A stretch of 54,344 nucleotides of DNA from Marinitoga hydrogenitolerans DSM 16785 (GTDB taxonomy: Bacteria > Thermotogota > Thermotogae > Petrotogales > Petrotogaceae). Under the pieces are notes generated by a model that saw only the letters and a list, made by a program, of their open reading frames with translations, did no database searches and had not been told where the DNA came from. Made by a program: the position numbers and the translations under genes. Shown one piece after another: positions 4,495-36,310 of the stretch (its first letter is position 1; every line of letters begins with the position of its first letter). The stretch spans positions 1 to 54,344 of the forward strand of contig NZ_FQUI01000011.1 in assembly GCF_900129175.1 (NCBI RefSeq), written 5' to 3'.

Positions 4495-4680
4495 GTGTGC
4501 CGGGCATGAATAACAGCTAGGTGGTGAAAGTCCGCTGTGGAGGTTGACCGTGCCAACCACTAGCCAAAGGCAAGGGTGTCCAGCGCGAGGTGGAATCTGA
4601 AGGAAGCCGGAGGCAAAATCTTGGTCCGAAGTACACGAACCACATTAGAGACTGTATAAATCGGGTGAGTTTGCATAATA
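4495..4680 (+). mobile_element. Group II intron, 5' fragment (domain I region)
   Basis: The stretch begins GTGTG, the group II intron 5' consensus, and continues with blocks typical of domain I: CAGCTAGGTGGTGAAAGTCC, GACCGTGCCAACCAC, CAAGGGTGTCC, GTGGAATCTGAAGGAAGCC and GGGTGAGTTTGCATAA. It is far more GC-rich than its surroundings. The similarity stops near 4680. No reverse transcriptase/maturase frame and no domain V/VI hairpin follow before the next gene at 4800, so this is a dead 5' remnant. The intron class was not determined. Confidence 0.8.
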
Positions 4681-4749
4681 AGGGTTTACTTGTATATTAT
4701 ATTTTTCTTTAATCTATTATTACCTTTTAATATATTTGAAATAATTAAT

Positions 4750-32391: not shown

Positions 32392-33318
32392 TTATAACCA
32401 CTTTTTCCCTTTAAACCATAAAAACGTCATAAACATAATTATAATTGATGAAATAATTATATTTATATAAACCAAAGGATTTTCCTGAAATGGAAGTCTT
32501 ACATTCATTCCATAAAAACTTGTTAAAATAGTAGGTACCTGAAGCAATATAGTTACAACAGTCAAAATTTTCATCACAATATTTAAATTATTAGATATAA
32601 CTGATGCATAAGCATCCATCATTCCAGATAAAATATTACTGTATATATTAGTAACCTCAATAGCTTGTCTATTTTCTATTAATGTATCTTCTAATAAATC
32701 TTGATCATCTTCATATAATGGAAGTATCTTTCCTTTTAAAAGTTTTTCCATCATTATTTCATTTGACCTTAATGATGTGGTGAAGTACACTAAACTTTTC
32801 TCAAGATACATCAATGTTTCAAGTTCATAGTTTTTCATGGATCTATGTAATTCTTCCTCAACTAAATCAATAGTTTTATTTATTTCTTTTAAGTAATCCA
32901 AAAATAATTTGGCATTTTTATAAAATATTTGAAAGATCATTTTACTTTTTTTATGTGGATTTAAAAGACCTGTTCCGATCATCTTATCAATAAAATCTAT
33001 CTCCTGCCTCATTGATAATAAGATGTAATTTTTGCCAATTATAATACCCAAAGAAACAGTTTTGTAAGGAATTTTTTCATTTTCTTCATTTCTCATGGGA
33101 ACTTTTAGAATTAATAAAATTGTATCTTCATCAATTTCAATACGTGCTCTTTCATCTTCATCAAGCGAATCGCTGATAAAATCCGGATCAAAATTTAACA
33201 AGCTTGATAACATATGAACTTCATCCTGTGAAGGGTTCACAACTTTAATTAATGCATCTTGAGAAAAGCTTTTTGTCTCCACTAACCTGTGTTCAATTCT
33301 GCTATAAAATTTTACCAT
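32392..33318 (-). CDS. corA: CorA-family Mg2+/Co2+ channel
   Basis: A 308-residue divalent-cation channel. A large cytoplasmic N-terminal domain with a long helix (to about 245) is followed by two C-terminal membrane helices. The signature YGMNV closes the first helix, followed by the acidic loop residues PFQENP. It would admit Mg2+ as a pentamer, gated by internal Mg2+. AAAGGAGGAATTAAT precedes the ATG. A 15-codon ORF with its own ribosome site lies just upstream. Confidence 0.93.
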   Translation of the reverse strand: MVKFYSRIEHRLVETKSFSQDALIKVVNPSQDEVHMLSSLLNFDPDFISDSLDEDERARIEIDEDTILLILKVPMRNEENEKIPYKTVSLGIIIGKNYILLSMRQEIDFIDKMIGTGLLNPHKKSKMIFQIFYKNAKLFLDYLKEINKTIDLVEEELHRSMKNYELETLMYLEKSLVYFTTSLRSNEIMMEKLLKGKILPLYEDDQDLLEDTLIENRQAIEVTNIYSNILSGMMDAYASVISNNLNIVMKILTVVTILLQVPTILTSFYGMNVRLPFQENPLVYINIIISSIIIMFMTFLWFKGKKWL

Positions 33319-33342
33319 ATTAATTCCTCCTTTATATATATT

Positions 33343-33390
33343 TTATGGGGGTCTAGACAAAGGATCTTCGCTACAACTAAAATAATCCAT
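33343..33390 (-). CDS. corA leader peptide (15 codons)
   Basis: AGAGGTGAATTTT is followed by ATG at 33390 and the frame MDYFSCSEDPLSRPP, ending at TAA 24 bases before the corA start. The peptide has an acidic-Pro stretch (SEDP) and ends Pro-Pro-stop, both of which slow or destabilise ribosomes, especially when Mg2+ is low. Mg2+-transporter genes in enteric bacteria (mgtA, corA) have leader ORFs that sense such stalling; the analogy is inference. TCCTTT inside this ORF (about 33364-33359) is complementary to AAAGGA in the corA ribosome site, offering a switch between masked and open states. Confidence 0.6.
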   Translation of the reverse strand: MDYFSCSEDPLSRPP

Positions 33391-33424
33391 AAAATTCACC
33401 TCTCTTTTAGTTTGATATAAAATA

Positions 33425-33453
33425 ATTATACCATAATTATTTTCAGTTTTTCA
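33425..33453 (-). promoter_or_regulatory. Promoter of the corA leader
   Basis: TATAAT on the minus strand (33430-33425), with a weak TGAAAA at 33453-33448 and a 17-base spacer. It lies 35 bases before the leader ORF. Confidence 0.5.
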
Positions 33454-33473
33454 TAATTATAATGGAATTTATC

Positions 33474-34295
33474 TTATTTGTTAACAAAAGTCTTGTTTTT
33501 TAAATAGTTAATTGAATAAGAAATTAGAAACAAAGAAAATAGTGTAACCACAATAGAGGGGCCAGGTGGAATATCGATAAAATATGCAATAACAATTCCT
33601 AAAAACCCAGATAATATACCTATAAAACTGGAAATAACAATCATTTGATTTAAAGACTTTGCAAATAATTTAGCTATTACACCAGGTGTAATAAGTAAAG
33701 AAGTAACTAAAATAATACCAATGATTTTGACAGAAGTTACCACCACTATAGAGACAATGATTAAGAAAATATAATTTATCAAATTTATAGGTACGCCGAA
33801 ATTTTTTGCCATTCTTGAATTATATGCGTAATATTTTAATTCTTTATTAAACGCAATGACAAGGAATAATATAATAAAAGATACAATACCAAGTATTTTC
33901 ACATCTTGACTATTAACCATTAAGATATCGCCAAACAAATAACTTGAAATTTCTGGTGTATATCCAGGTTTAAGATATAAAAAGATTACACCTAAAGCCA
34001 TTGAAAAAGATAGTAGCATGCCTATAACACTATTTTCACTTATCTTTTCTTTTTTGCCTATGAAATAAATAGCTGTTCCGAATAGGATAGCTGTAATAAT
34101 ACTAATAATATCAATGTTAAAATCAAATAGCACAGCTAAAGCAATACCACCAAAAGCAGTATGTGCAGCGCCCTCACCAATGAATTCCATCTTTTTTAAA
34201 ACAATATAATTTGACAGAATAGAAGCGCTAAAACTGGATAAAATAGCAGCTAAAATTGCGTATATTATAAAATCATAAGAAAATAATTCAATCAT
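33474..34295 (-). CDS. znuB: Zinc/manganese ABC transporter permease
   Basis: A 273-residue permease of the ABC-3 family with about eight helices. It includes the region GEGAAHTAFGGIALAVLF, typical of Zn/Mn permeases, and LLVTSLLITPGVIAKLF, the ATPase contact loop. Zinc is favoured over manganese because a Fur-family regulator sits in the same operon, but this is inference. The start overlaps the ATPase gene by 8 bases. Last gene of the operon. Confidence 0.88.
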   Translation of the reverse strand: MIELFSYDFIIYAILAAILSSFSASILSNYIVLKKMEFIGEGAAHTAFGGIALAVLFDFNIDIISIITAILFGTAIYFIGKKEKISENSVIGMLLSFSMALGVIFLYLKPGYTPEISSYLFGDILMVNSQDVKILGIVSFIILFLVIAFNKELKYYAYNSRMAKNFGVPINLINYIFLIIVSIVVVTSVKIIGIILVTSLLITPGVIAKLFAKSLNQMIVISSFIGILSGFLGIVIAYFIDIPPGPSIVVTLFSLFLISYSINYLKNKTFVNK

Positions 34296-35028
34296 TTCTA
34301 CTCACCACTTTCAATGGCTTATCAATATGAACGAGTAATTCTAATTCTTCTGAATATATCTTTTTCAAGTCATCTGAAGTCATATCAATTGAGTTTTTAT
34401 GACAATGTAAAGTTTTGTTTAGGCACATAACAGTATTAACTTTTTTTAAAACCATAGAAATATCATGACTTACTAAAATTATAGTCATACCTTTTTTATT
34501 AAGATCTTCCAAAATAGAATATATTATTTTTTGAGCATTACTATCTACACCAGCTTCTGGTTCATCCAATATTAAAATATCAGGATCACTTACTAATGCC
34601 CTGGCTAAACTTAATCTTTGATACTCTCCACCTGAAAGCTTTCCTACATTTCTATTATATAAATATTCAATATCAAGCATTTTCATAATATTTCTAACCT
34701 TTTCATAATGTTTTTTCTTATACCTTTTAAAAACACCAACTTCATTATACATACCCATTAAAGCGACTTCAAAAGCTCTGATAGGGAATGTTCTGTCGAA
34801 TTCGTCTTTTTGTGGAACATACCCTATTTTCCCATTGATATTCACACTGCCAATATAATTTTTTATTTCACCAACTAATATTTTTATTAAAGTTGATTTT
34901 CCAGCACCATTTGGTCCTATTATTCCTACAAAATCATTTTTATAAATATCAAAATTAATAAATTTTAAAATTTCAGTATTTTCCACATTATAGCTCAAAT
35001 CTTTAACTGAAATAATTTTTTCACGCAT
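34288..35028 (-). CDS. znuC: Zinc/manganese ABC transporter ATP-binding protein
   Basis: A 246-residue ABC ATPase. Walker A is GPNGAGKSTLIK, the signature is KLSGGEYQRLSLARAL, Walker B is ILILDEPEAG and the switch His follows in LVSHDIS. It powers the ZnuB permease. The ATG at 35028 follows AAGGTGA; an upstream in-frame start would lie inside the regulator gene and is rejected. It overlaps the regulator's stop by 8 bases. Confidence 0.9.
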   Translation of the reverse strand: MREKIISVKDLSYNVENTEILKFINFDIYKNDFVGIIGPNGAGKSTLIKILVGEIKNYIGSVNINGKIGYVPQKDEFDRTFPIRAFEVALMGMYNEVGVFKRYKKKHYEKVRNIMKMLDIEYLYNRNVGKLSGGEYQRLSLARALVSDPDILILDEPEAGVDSNAQKIIYSILEDLNKKGMTIILVSHDISMVLKKVNTVMCLNKTLHCHKNSIDMTSDDLKKIYSEELELLVHIDKPLKVVSRND

Positions 35029-35404
35029 TTTTTTCACCTTCTCTTTGACAATCCTTACATATACCTTCAAAATATAAAATGTGATCTGTTATTTCAAATT
35101 GAATATTATTTTCTATATAGTCTTTAAATTGCTTTTCAAAACATAAATCCAGACGTTCAAACTTTTTGCATTTTGTACAATATATAAAGTGAAAATGTCC
35201 TTTAGGCTTATAATAATAAGTTATCTTATCAGAAAAAACAATAGATTTTAAAATATTTTCTTTTTCAAAAAGATTTAAATTTCTATATATAGTAGATAAA
35301 TCATATTCATTATTTAAAAGATTATAAATTTCTTCAGCGTTTAAAGGATAATCTATCTTTTTATATAAATCTAAAATGTCTCTTCGAGGTTTCGTTAACT
35401 TCAT
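35021..35404 (-). CDS. Fur-family metalloregulator (probably Zur)
   Basis: A 127-residue Fur/Zur/PerR-type repressor. The winged helix (about 1-75) contains DLSTIYRNLNLFEKENIL, the recognition-helix region. The dimerisation part has HFHFIYCTKCKK and GICKDCQ, the two CxxC knuckles of the structural zinc site. Its place between znuA and znuC points to zinc sensing and autoregulation. The inverted repeat upstream of znuA is the obvious operator. Metal specificity is inferred. Confidence 0.85.
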   Translation of the reverse strand: MKLTKPRRDILDLYKKIDYPLNAEEIYNLLNNEYDLSTIYRNLNLFEKENILKSIVFSDKITYYYKPKGHFHFIYCTKCKKFERLDLCFEKQFKDYIENNIQFEITDHILYFEGICKDCQREGEKNA

Positions 35405-35408
35405 AATA

Positions 35409-36284
35409 TCACCTTACAGCATTTAATATATTTAAAAAATTCATCAAATAAAGCTCATCAATAGAATTATAATTTGATCCTAAAGGGTCTAATTCGCCTA
35501 AATTAATTCTTAATATTTTAGCTAACTTTTCCGCTAATTTTTTATTTAATTGTGGTTCTGAAAATAGAGCTTTAACCTTATTCTTTTTAGCTAAATCAGA
35601 AAGTCTTTTTATTTCAGAAATAGATGGTTCAACTCCGGGAGAATTCTCAATTACACCAGCAATATTAATATTGTATCTCTTTGTAAAATAAGGAAATGAA
35701 TTATGAAAAGTAATGATACTTCCATCGATTTCGTGTGATTTTATTAATAAATATGCATCCAAAAATTTTAGTTTATCTTTTAATATTTCAGCATTTGTTT
35801 CATAAATCTCTTTTTTTTCAGGATTTATTTTGATTAGTTCATTAACAATACCAGGTATAATATAAGTGTAAGTTAAATGTGGATTTAGCCATATATGGGG
35901 GTTGTAATAAACACGTTCATCGTTGCCAGAATTATAATGTTCATCATTGTCATTCAATATTAATTCATTTTTCGGGATTAATTCGGAAATATAGAGAAAA
36001 GGTATATTTTTATTTTTTAAGTTAGAAATAATGTTTTTTATAAATATTTCTGAATTTAACCCATTGAAAATTATTAAGTCGCTTTTATAAATTTTAATAA
36101 GATCTTTTGAGGAAATAGAATAAGTGTGAGGGCTTTTTCCTGCGGGAACAATAACATTAATGTTATCATTAACATCCACAATATCTTTTAATATCAAGTA
36201 ATATGGATAGATAGAGACAGAAATATTAATTGAATAACTAATAACACCGATAATTAAAAACAATAATAACATGTATTTTTTCAT
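35409..36284 (-). CDS. znuA: Zinc/manganese-binding protein (TroA/ZnuA family)
   Basis: A 291-residue cluster-9 solute-binding protein with a signal sequence (MKKYMLLLFLIIGVISYS). Metal ligands are expected at PAGKSPHTYS (His), NPHIWLNPH (His), ITFHNSFPYF (His) and the C-terminal Asp in LGELDPLG. A short loop, DNDEHYNSGNDER, replaces the longer His-rich loop of many ZnuA proteins. The ATG at 36284 follows GGAGGTGAT; an upstream in-frame ATG falls inside the ribosome site. First gene of znuA-zur-znuC-znuB. Confidence 0.9.
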   Translation of the reverse strand: MKKYMLLLFLIIGVISYSINISVSIYPYYLILKDIVDVNDNINVIVPAGKSPHTYSISSKDLIKIYKSDLIIFNGLNSEIFIKNIISNLKNKNIPFLYISELIPKNELILNDNDEHYNSGNDERVYYNPHIWLNPHLTYTYIIPGIVNELIKINPEKKEIYETNAEILKDKLKFLDAYLLIKSHEIDGSIITFHNSFPYFTKRYNINIAGVIENSPGVEPSISEIKRLSDLAKKNKVKALFSEPQLNKKLAEKLAKILRINLGELDPLGSNYNSIDELYLMNFLNILNAVR

Positions 36285-36310
36285 AAACATCACCTCCAAA
36301 TAAAAATCAT

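Follow-up and report, generated by a model that had tools for sequence, protein, structure and literature searches.

A leader ORF precedes corA in Marinitoga hydrogenitolerans

The window, by which we mean the whole stretch of 54,344 nucleotides of Marinitoga hydrogenitolerans DSM 16785 that was analysed, carries on its minus strand (32392..33318) a corA gene encoding a 308-aa protein of the CorA Mg2+ transporter family. The product matches PF01544 with 179 bits, no other protein of the genome matches this family, and the GMN motif is present in the alignment. Its nearest solved relatives, 4cy4 and 4ev6, are titled magnesium transport protein CorA. The TIGR00383 score (121.7 bits) stays below the cut-off of 200.75 bits, and the metal of this CorA is therefore assigned by family only.

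Directly upstream, on the same strand, lies an ORF of 15 codons (33343..33390), which runs from an ATG at 33390 to a TAA at 33343 and translates as MDYFSCSEDPLSRPP. It has its own Shine-Dalgarno sequence, GAGAGGTG (33397..33404), of a GAGGTGA type that is kept in relatives. The peptide contains an acidic-Pro stretch, Glu8-Asp9-Pro10 (GAA GAT CCT, 33361..33369), and ends in Pro-Pro-stop (CCC CCA TAA, 33343..33351). Between this stop and the corA ATG (33318) there is a spacer of 24 nt (33319..33342), which holds the corA Shine-Dalgarno sequence AAAGGAGG (33333-33326). A preliminary description of this DNA had claimed a leader ORF that has its own ribosome site, lies 24 bases before corA, contains an acidic-Pro stretch and terminates in Pro-Pro. 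All these features are indeed found on the minus strand, and their conservation extends further than had been claimed.

A likely promoter, ATGAAA - 18 nt - TATAAT with a preceding TG, is located at 33425..33454 on the minus strand (10/12 matches, extended -10). It is sigma-70-like, and its TATAAT is kept across the congeners. A second candidate, at 33484-33456, has 11/12 matches. Since a promoter-like site lies directly 5' of the leader, the leader is probably the first ORF on the corA mRNA. Further upstream, genes for a znu-type metal ABC transporter (permease and ATPase), a Fur-family regulator and a ZnuA-type binding protein adjoin corA on the same strand (33474-36299, minus). We considered zinc control, in view of the position of corA downstream of this cluster; in genomes of other families the leader again precedes corA.

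The leader peptide is conserved before corA

All six other genomes of the genus carry the leader (7/7 including the window), in each case with 15 codons and led by a Shine-Dalgarno sequence, and the consensus of the congener leaders is M/VDY[FL]SC[SN]EDPLSRPP. The ORF is stable among the congeners while the flanking upstream and spacer sequences drift and differ in length. The pN/pS of the genus leaders, which are non-independent samples, is 0.075 (14 codons, 6 distinct sequences), and a value as low as this was obtained in 5 of 2000 column shuffles. The substitutions are coding-like, and the peptide sequence is under selection. Loss of the ORF or of its Pro codons in close relatives had been named beforehand as the finding that would speak against the leader; all seven genomes keep both.

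This CorA was found in 41 of 103 Thermotogota genomes (G087 has another corA fragment, which was left out of the set), and the upstream regions of all 41 were read. A single copy of the motif [DE][DE]PL[SP]RPP-stop is present in each of 16 of the 103 genomes, always directly before corA, and its reversed control gave no match in the same 103 genomes. The retention of the leader in 7/7 congeners, the pN/pS of 0.075 and a motif that is unique in each genome and placed before corA together argue that the leader is more than a chance ORF. We are very confident that it is a functional regulatory leader.

Loci with a short spacer form a set of 21: the seven congeners, G019, nine loci of family f9, three of family f6 (G025 being among f6) and L061. 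A leader ending in Pro-Pro-stop is present in 20 of these 21, or in 19 if a leader with ACG in place of ATG is rejected. The latter (L032, from genome G026) corresponds to an ATG in its relative L030, and reflects either a start change or a sequencing error. No leader was found before corA of G025. The leaders of L024 and L025 are identical, and so nearly are the regions of L041 and L042 in family f2; all were counted. In family f9, the leader is found in 9/9 genomes, for example as MSSESYTSSYSDEPLPRPP, MESYGSYSDEPLPRPP and MSSDSFSRYSDEPLSRPP, and the genus and f9 leaders all contain [DE][DE]P (16/16). An f6 leader with ATG reads MESASNTEIPLRPP. The G019 leader, MDSSSSSKDVVSLPP, stands before a CorA that is 58% identical to that of the window. 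L061, a named MAG detected in a scan of genome contigs, has the leader MDCFNCDDDSKYKPP, and its CorA shares 77% identity with that of the window. The MAG is labelled Fusobacteriales in spite of this identity and its Pro-Pro-stop leader, which points to a mislabel or a transfer.

In the 20 short-spacer leaders, 20-31 nt of variable sequence separate the stop from the corA ATG, and 7-15 nt separate it from the corA Shine-Dalgarno sequence. None of 331 other ORFs from the loci scanned, and none of 11 CorA paralogs, is preceded by Pro-Pro-stop. The acidic-Pro stretch is absent from two of the 20 leaders, those of G019 (KDVVSLPP) and L061 (DDDSKYKPP); since both retain Pro-Pro-stop, the invariant part of the leader is its Pro-Pro end and not the acidic-Pro stretch. 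Elsewhere in the phylum, family f10 together with G038 has a leader before corA in 0/7 cases. The f2 family (14 loci) has leaders such as MELYSSESEPPL, MELYSSESEPPP and MELYSSESDLPP, which lie 71-90 nt before corA.

Comparison with known leaders and a proposed mode of action

To our knowledge, Mg2+-sensing leader peptides are known only from enteric bacteria. The window leader shares with them its own ribosome site, a Mg2+ transporter gene downstream, early acidic residues and selection on the peptide. The alternative RNA structures of mgtL/mgtQ-type leaders were not found in the 20 short-spacer loci, which fold like shuffled sequences. The closest known systems are mgtQ and mgtL. The former, in the mgtC-mgtB intergenic region of Salmonella, is described as a tiny Shine-Dalgarno-led ORF directly 5' of a Mg2+ transporter gene, with acidic residues (Asp2 and Glu5) and proline, and with control at the level of translation (PMC8092293). 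In the same account, some translation of mgtQ is required for the ON state, and the leader precedes mgtB and acts through stem-loops 1:2/3:4 versus 2:3 (PMC8092293). By contrast, the window leader has no such structure, ends in Pro-Pro-stop and precedes corA. The enteric mgtA leader, mgtL, likewise encodes an acidic-Pro peptide (EPDP), whose translation is described to abort at low Mg2+ and thereby to raise the transporter; unlike the window leader, which has no structured leader RNA, mgtL controls Rho-dependent transcription termination via mRNA conformation (PMC11282234). The enteric corA leader, corL, which we compared by description, is also a short ORF before corA, and more translation of corL gives less corA. 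It differs in its UUG start, a single proline in its conserved part, a structured 5' region and Rho termination (PMC11552253).

The end of the peptide resembles another system. Pro-Pro stands directly 5' of the stop codon in all 20 short-spacer leaders, as it does at the end of the E. coli ybeL-PP construct, in which termination is arrested (PMC3834316; PMC3985003). The published case is a protein-coding test construct, whereas the ORF described here is a dedicated leader with its stop 7-15 nt before a ribosome site. C-terminal Pro-Pro was reported to arrest termination "in all genetic contexts tested" in E. coli (PMC3834316). Acidic or acidic-Pro leaders are reported to abort translation and to raise the synthesis of Mg2+ transporters, in Salmonella for mgtQ (PMC8092293) and in E. 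coli for mgtL (PMC11282234).

The M-box (ykoK, RF00380) also places Mg2+ transporters under Mg2+ control, but it is an RNA aptamer. A covariance search for RF00380 gave no match in the 103 Thermotogota genomes, with positive controls in Bacillus subtilis and Lactococcus lactis, and an M-box at the leader was rejected. The absence of the M-box from these genomes leaves room for another Mg2+ sensor.

We propose that the ORF encodes a leader peptide that acts in cis on the translation of corA by two means, blocking by a ribosome at Pro-Pro-stop and abort of translation at low Mg2+. As a whole, this proposal appears to us evenly poised between right and wrong. That Mg2+ is the signal seems reasonably probable by analogy, given the target gene corA, the absence of the M-box and the resemblance to mgtL and mgtQ, and we lean slightly towards blocking at Pro-Pro-stop as the output of the leader. 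When Mg2+ is sufficient, the ribosome would pass Glu-Asp-Pro, reach the stop with Pro-Pro as the last residues, and terminate slowly. The leading edge of a ribosome held at a stop codon lies about 10-12 nt past the stop. Here, it would cover or abut the corA ribosome site 7-15 nt downstream, and for this reason corA would be little translated. At low Mg2+, ribosomes would be destabilised on the acidic-Pro residues and drop off before the end, which would keep the corA site open and allow more Mg2+ transporter to be made. The direction of the effect, in which completion of the leader would lower corA expression, we infer from the enteric cases and the geometry of the locus.

Alternative readings of the conserved prolines

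The main reservation about the Mg2+ model is that Pro-Pro-stop is invariant and the acidic-Pro stretch is not, as seen in G019 and L061, so a signal based on proline or on termination is possible. The leader might sense charged tRNA-Pro, or EF-P/ABCF capacity, instead of Mg2+, with ribosomes waiting at the Pro codons setting corA translation. The invariant Pro codons and the Pro-Pro-stop in 20/20 leaders would suit this idea, and so would a Salmonella precedent, mgtP, where proline limitation is reported to work via the mgtP and mgtA leaders (PMC3641672). However, the acidic residues are likewise kept in most of the leaders, and many Bacillota leaders contain a single proline after early acidic residues (MDEGP, MDEVP), an arrangement that suits destabilisation of the ribosome better than a count of prolines. 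We regard proline sensing as unlikely.

The leader might also sense nothing, and simply supply ribosomes to corA by termination and reinitiation. The spacer is short, and reinitiation from leader genes near structural genes has been proposed to raise translation (PMC4833913). Yet the excess described there for Actinobacteria lies at 10-11 bp, as against 20-31 nt here (PMC4833913). If Pro-Pro slows termination it would work against reinitiation, and yet it is invariant; such coupling also has no need for peptide conservation, which is at odds with a pN/pS of 0.075. Plain coupling is a rather unlikely explanation of the leader.

RNA structure at the leader

The preliminary description had suggested that TCCTTT in the ORF pairs with AAAGGA of the corA ribosome site, so that the position of the ribosome would switch corA translation. 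This pairing is possible in the window, but four of the seven congeners read TCCGTT at this position, and the switch was rejected on account of this loss. RNA folding, which had been put forward as a check, lends it no help: the 20 short-spacer loci fold no better than shuffles, with z-scores of folding energy from -2.1 to +1.9 (mononucleotide shuffles), and the corA Shine-Dalgarno sequence is unpaired at 0.41-0.94 in these folds. We also asked about the Pro codons themselves, as CCNCC could pair in part with GGAGG. At the first position of the Pro pair, nine of the 20 leaders use CCA, seven CCG, three CCC and one CCT. CCT, which would give the perfect anti-Shine-Dalgarno sequence CCTCC, is thus used in 1/20, so we rejected conservation of the Pro codons as an anti-Shine-Dalgarno element and conclude that Pro-Pro is kept as amino acids. 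An RNA switch in which either element pairs with the corA Shine-Dalgarno sequence and is opened by the ribosome has a parallel in the hairpin of the f2 relatives described below, but in the face of these data it is improbable for the short-spacer loci. A search of the window and the 20 loci at Rfam gathering scores returned four matches, none of them at the corA leader of the window, and any other Rfam element at this leader was accordingly rejected.

Finally, the pause at Pro-Pro-stop might cause the mRNA to be cleaved, or tmRNA to act, at the stop codon of the leader and so set the fate of the corA mRNA, for which A-site cleavage at Pro-Pro-stop of ybeL-PP in E. coli is a documented case (PMC3834316), but this would leave the kept acidic stretch unexplained and is improbable.

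In f2, the arrangement is different. A long hairpin 3' of the leader masks both the ribosome site and the start codon of corA (L039-L042 and L050-L059), and in nine aligned loci the corA Shine-Dalgarno sequence and start lie inside a conserved hairpin. Three pairs of the f2 consensus have changed on both sides, only one of them within the corA-start hairpin; as the other variable pairs of this hairpin vary one-sidedly, the support from covariation is modest. The leader's own GGAGGT could compete with the hairpin for the same ACCTCC.

Acidic-Pro leaders beyond the phylum

CorA relatives were surveyed in the best 80 of 541 loci, followed by three genome groups; one of the genome-group scans had 31 matching genomes, from which 30 loci entered the set. 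The acidic-Pro rule applied here was set after the sequences had been seen, and its counts should be read next to those for control ORFs. In Bacillaceae-like genomes, acidic-Pro leaders precede corA in 8/9 loci, with no other ORF of these loci satisfying the rule (0/8); they begin with MSSYYSNEPEPDS..., MSSQCCNEPEPGS..., MSSYSSNDPDPK... or MDAEDP.... One Bacillota leader begins with MSSYYSNEPEPD.... The Anaeromonas order has MDEGP, MDDGP and MDEVP leaders, and the rule holds in 29/30 of its loci as against 0/27 for other ORFs. L187, where another ORF satisfied the rule, also has MDEGPSLARKNNLTTAQ, and the leaders of L181 and L183 contain MDVRP. MD[ED][GV]P stands in register in 27/30 loci of this order and its third bases vary, the only variation that is informative, because in most of the conserved Clostridia codons the first and second bases are set by the regular expression. 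Lower counts were obtained for the Cellulosilyticum order (6/17 loci) and for the other named loci (14/72). Over all scanned loci, the rule was satisfied by 8 of 331 other ORFs, all eight among the non-Thermotogota contig set of 218, and by none of 11 CorA paralogs.

Genome-wide patterns were also searched. An EPEP-type pattern occurs in 5 of 60 Bacillaceae-like genomes, all five times before corA. One further leader pattern gave 17 matches, of which 15 are in genomes with this corA and lie just before it, the matches in G298 and G315 being exceptions; since its reversed control gave 11 matches, this pattern alone is near noise. The locus counts indicate that in several lineages unlike peptides that share an early acidic-Pro stretch precede corA, and that other lineages are without them.

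Pro-Pro-stop is missing from the Bacillota leaders, and their output step therefore differs. In six MDEVP-type leaders from Clostridia, a segment before corA can pair either with the end of the leader (2:3) or with sequence beside the corA Shine-Dalgarno (3:4), the two being mutually exclusive. These alternative hairpins are weaker in L194, and for L192 the short fold favours the 2:3 form. The 2:3 versus 3:4 topology is the one published for mgtQ (PMC8092293). In three Bacillaceae loci (L141, L144 and L147), single-sequence folds allow a helix of about 15 bp between the end of the leader and its ribosome site and start, while the ribosome site of corA is covered by another hairpin close to the stop codon of the leader.

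It is tempting to read the acidic-Pro leaders before corA as a Mg2+ sensor that is based on the ribosome and widespread in Thermotogota and Bacillota, which we offer tentatively and with somewhat less than even confidence. On this tentative reading, the relatives would have a leader of like kind in which RNA hairpins replace direct blocking, and there may be three outputs: blocking at Pro-Pro-stop as in the window, a Shine-Dalgarno-hiding hairpin as in f2, and mgtQ-like alternative hairpins as in Clostridia. The window type might then, equally tentatively, be a two-part device that works without RNA structure, made up of an acidic-Pro abort site and a termination brake. If confirmed, this would mean that bacteria of distant phyla sense the need for Mg2+ uptake through the dependence of the translating ribosome itself on Mg2+, and that position alone can be enough for a leader to act. 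A literature search returned no description of corA leader peptides from Thermotogota or Bacillota; since its coverage was partial (few subscription papers and preprints), this is weak evidence of novelty. The leaders collected here provide a ready set of natural sequences, thermophiles included, with which to probe the action of acidic-Pro and Pro-Pro across Mg2+ levels.

Two minor observations concern other RNA elements. At 4579-4693 on the plus strand, the window carries an Rfam group-II-D1D4-3 match of 52.3 bits, a group II intron or a remnant of one, and a purine riboswitch lies at 2720-2819 on the plus strand of L153, near a Clostridia corA locus.
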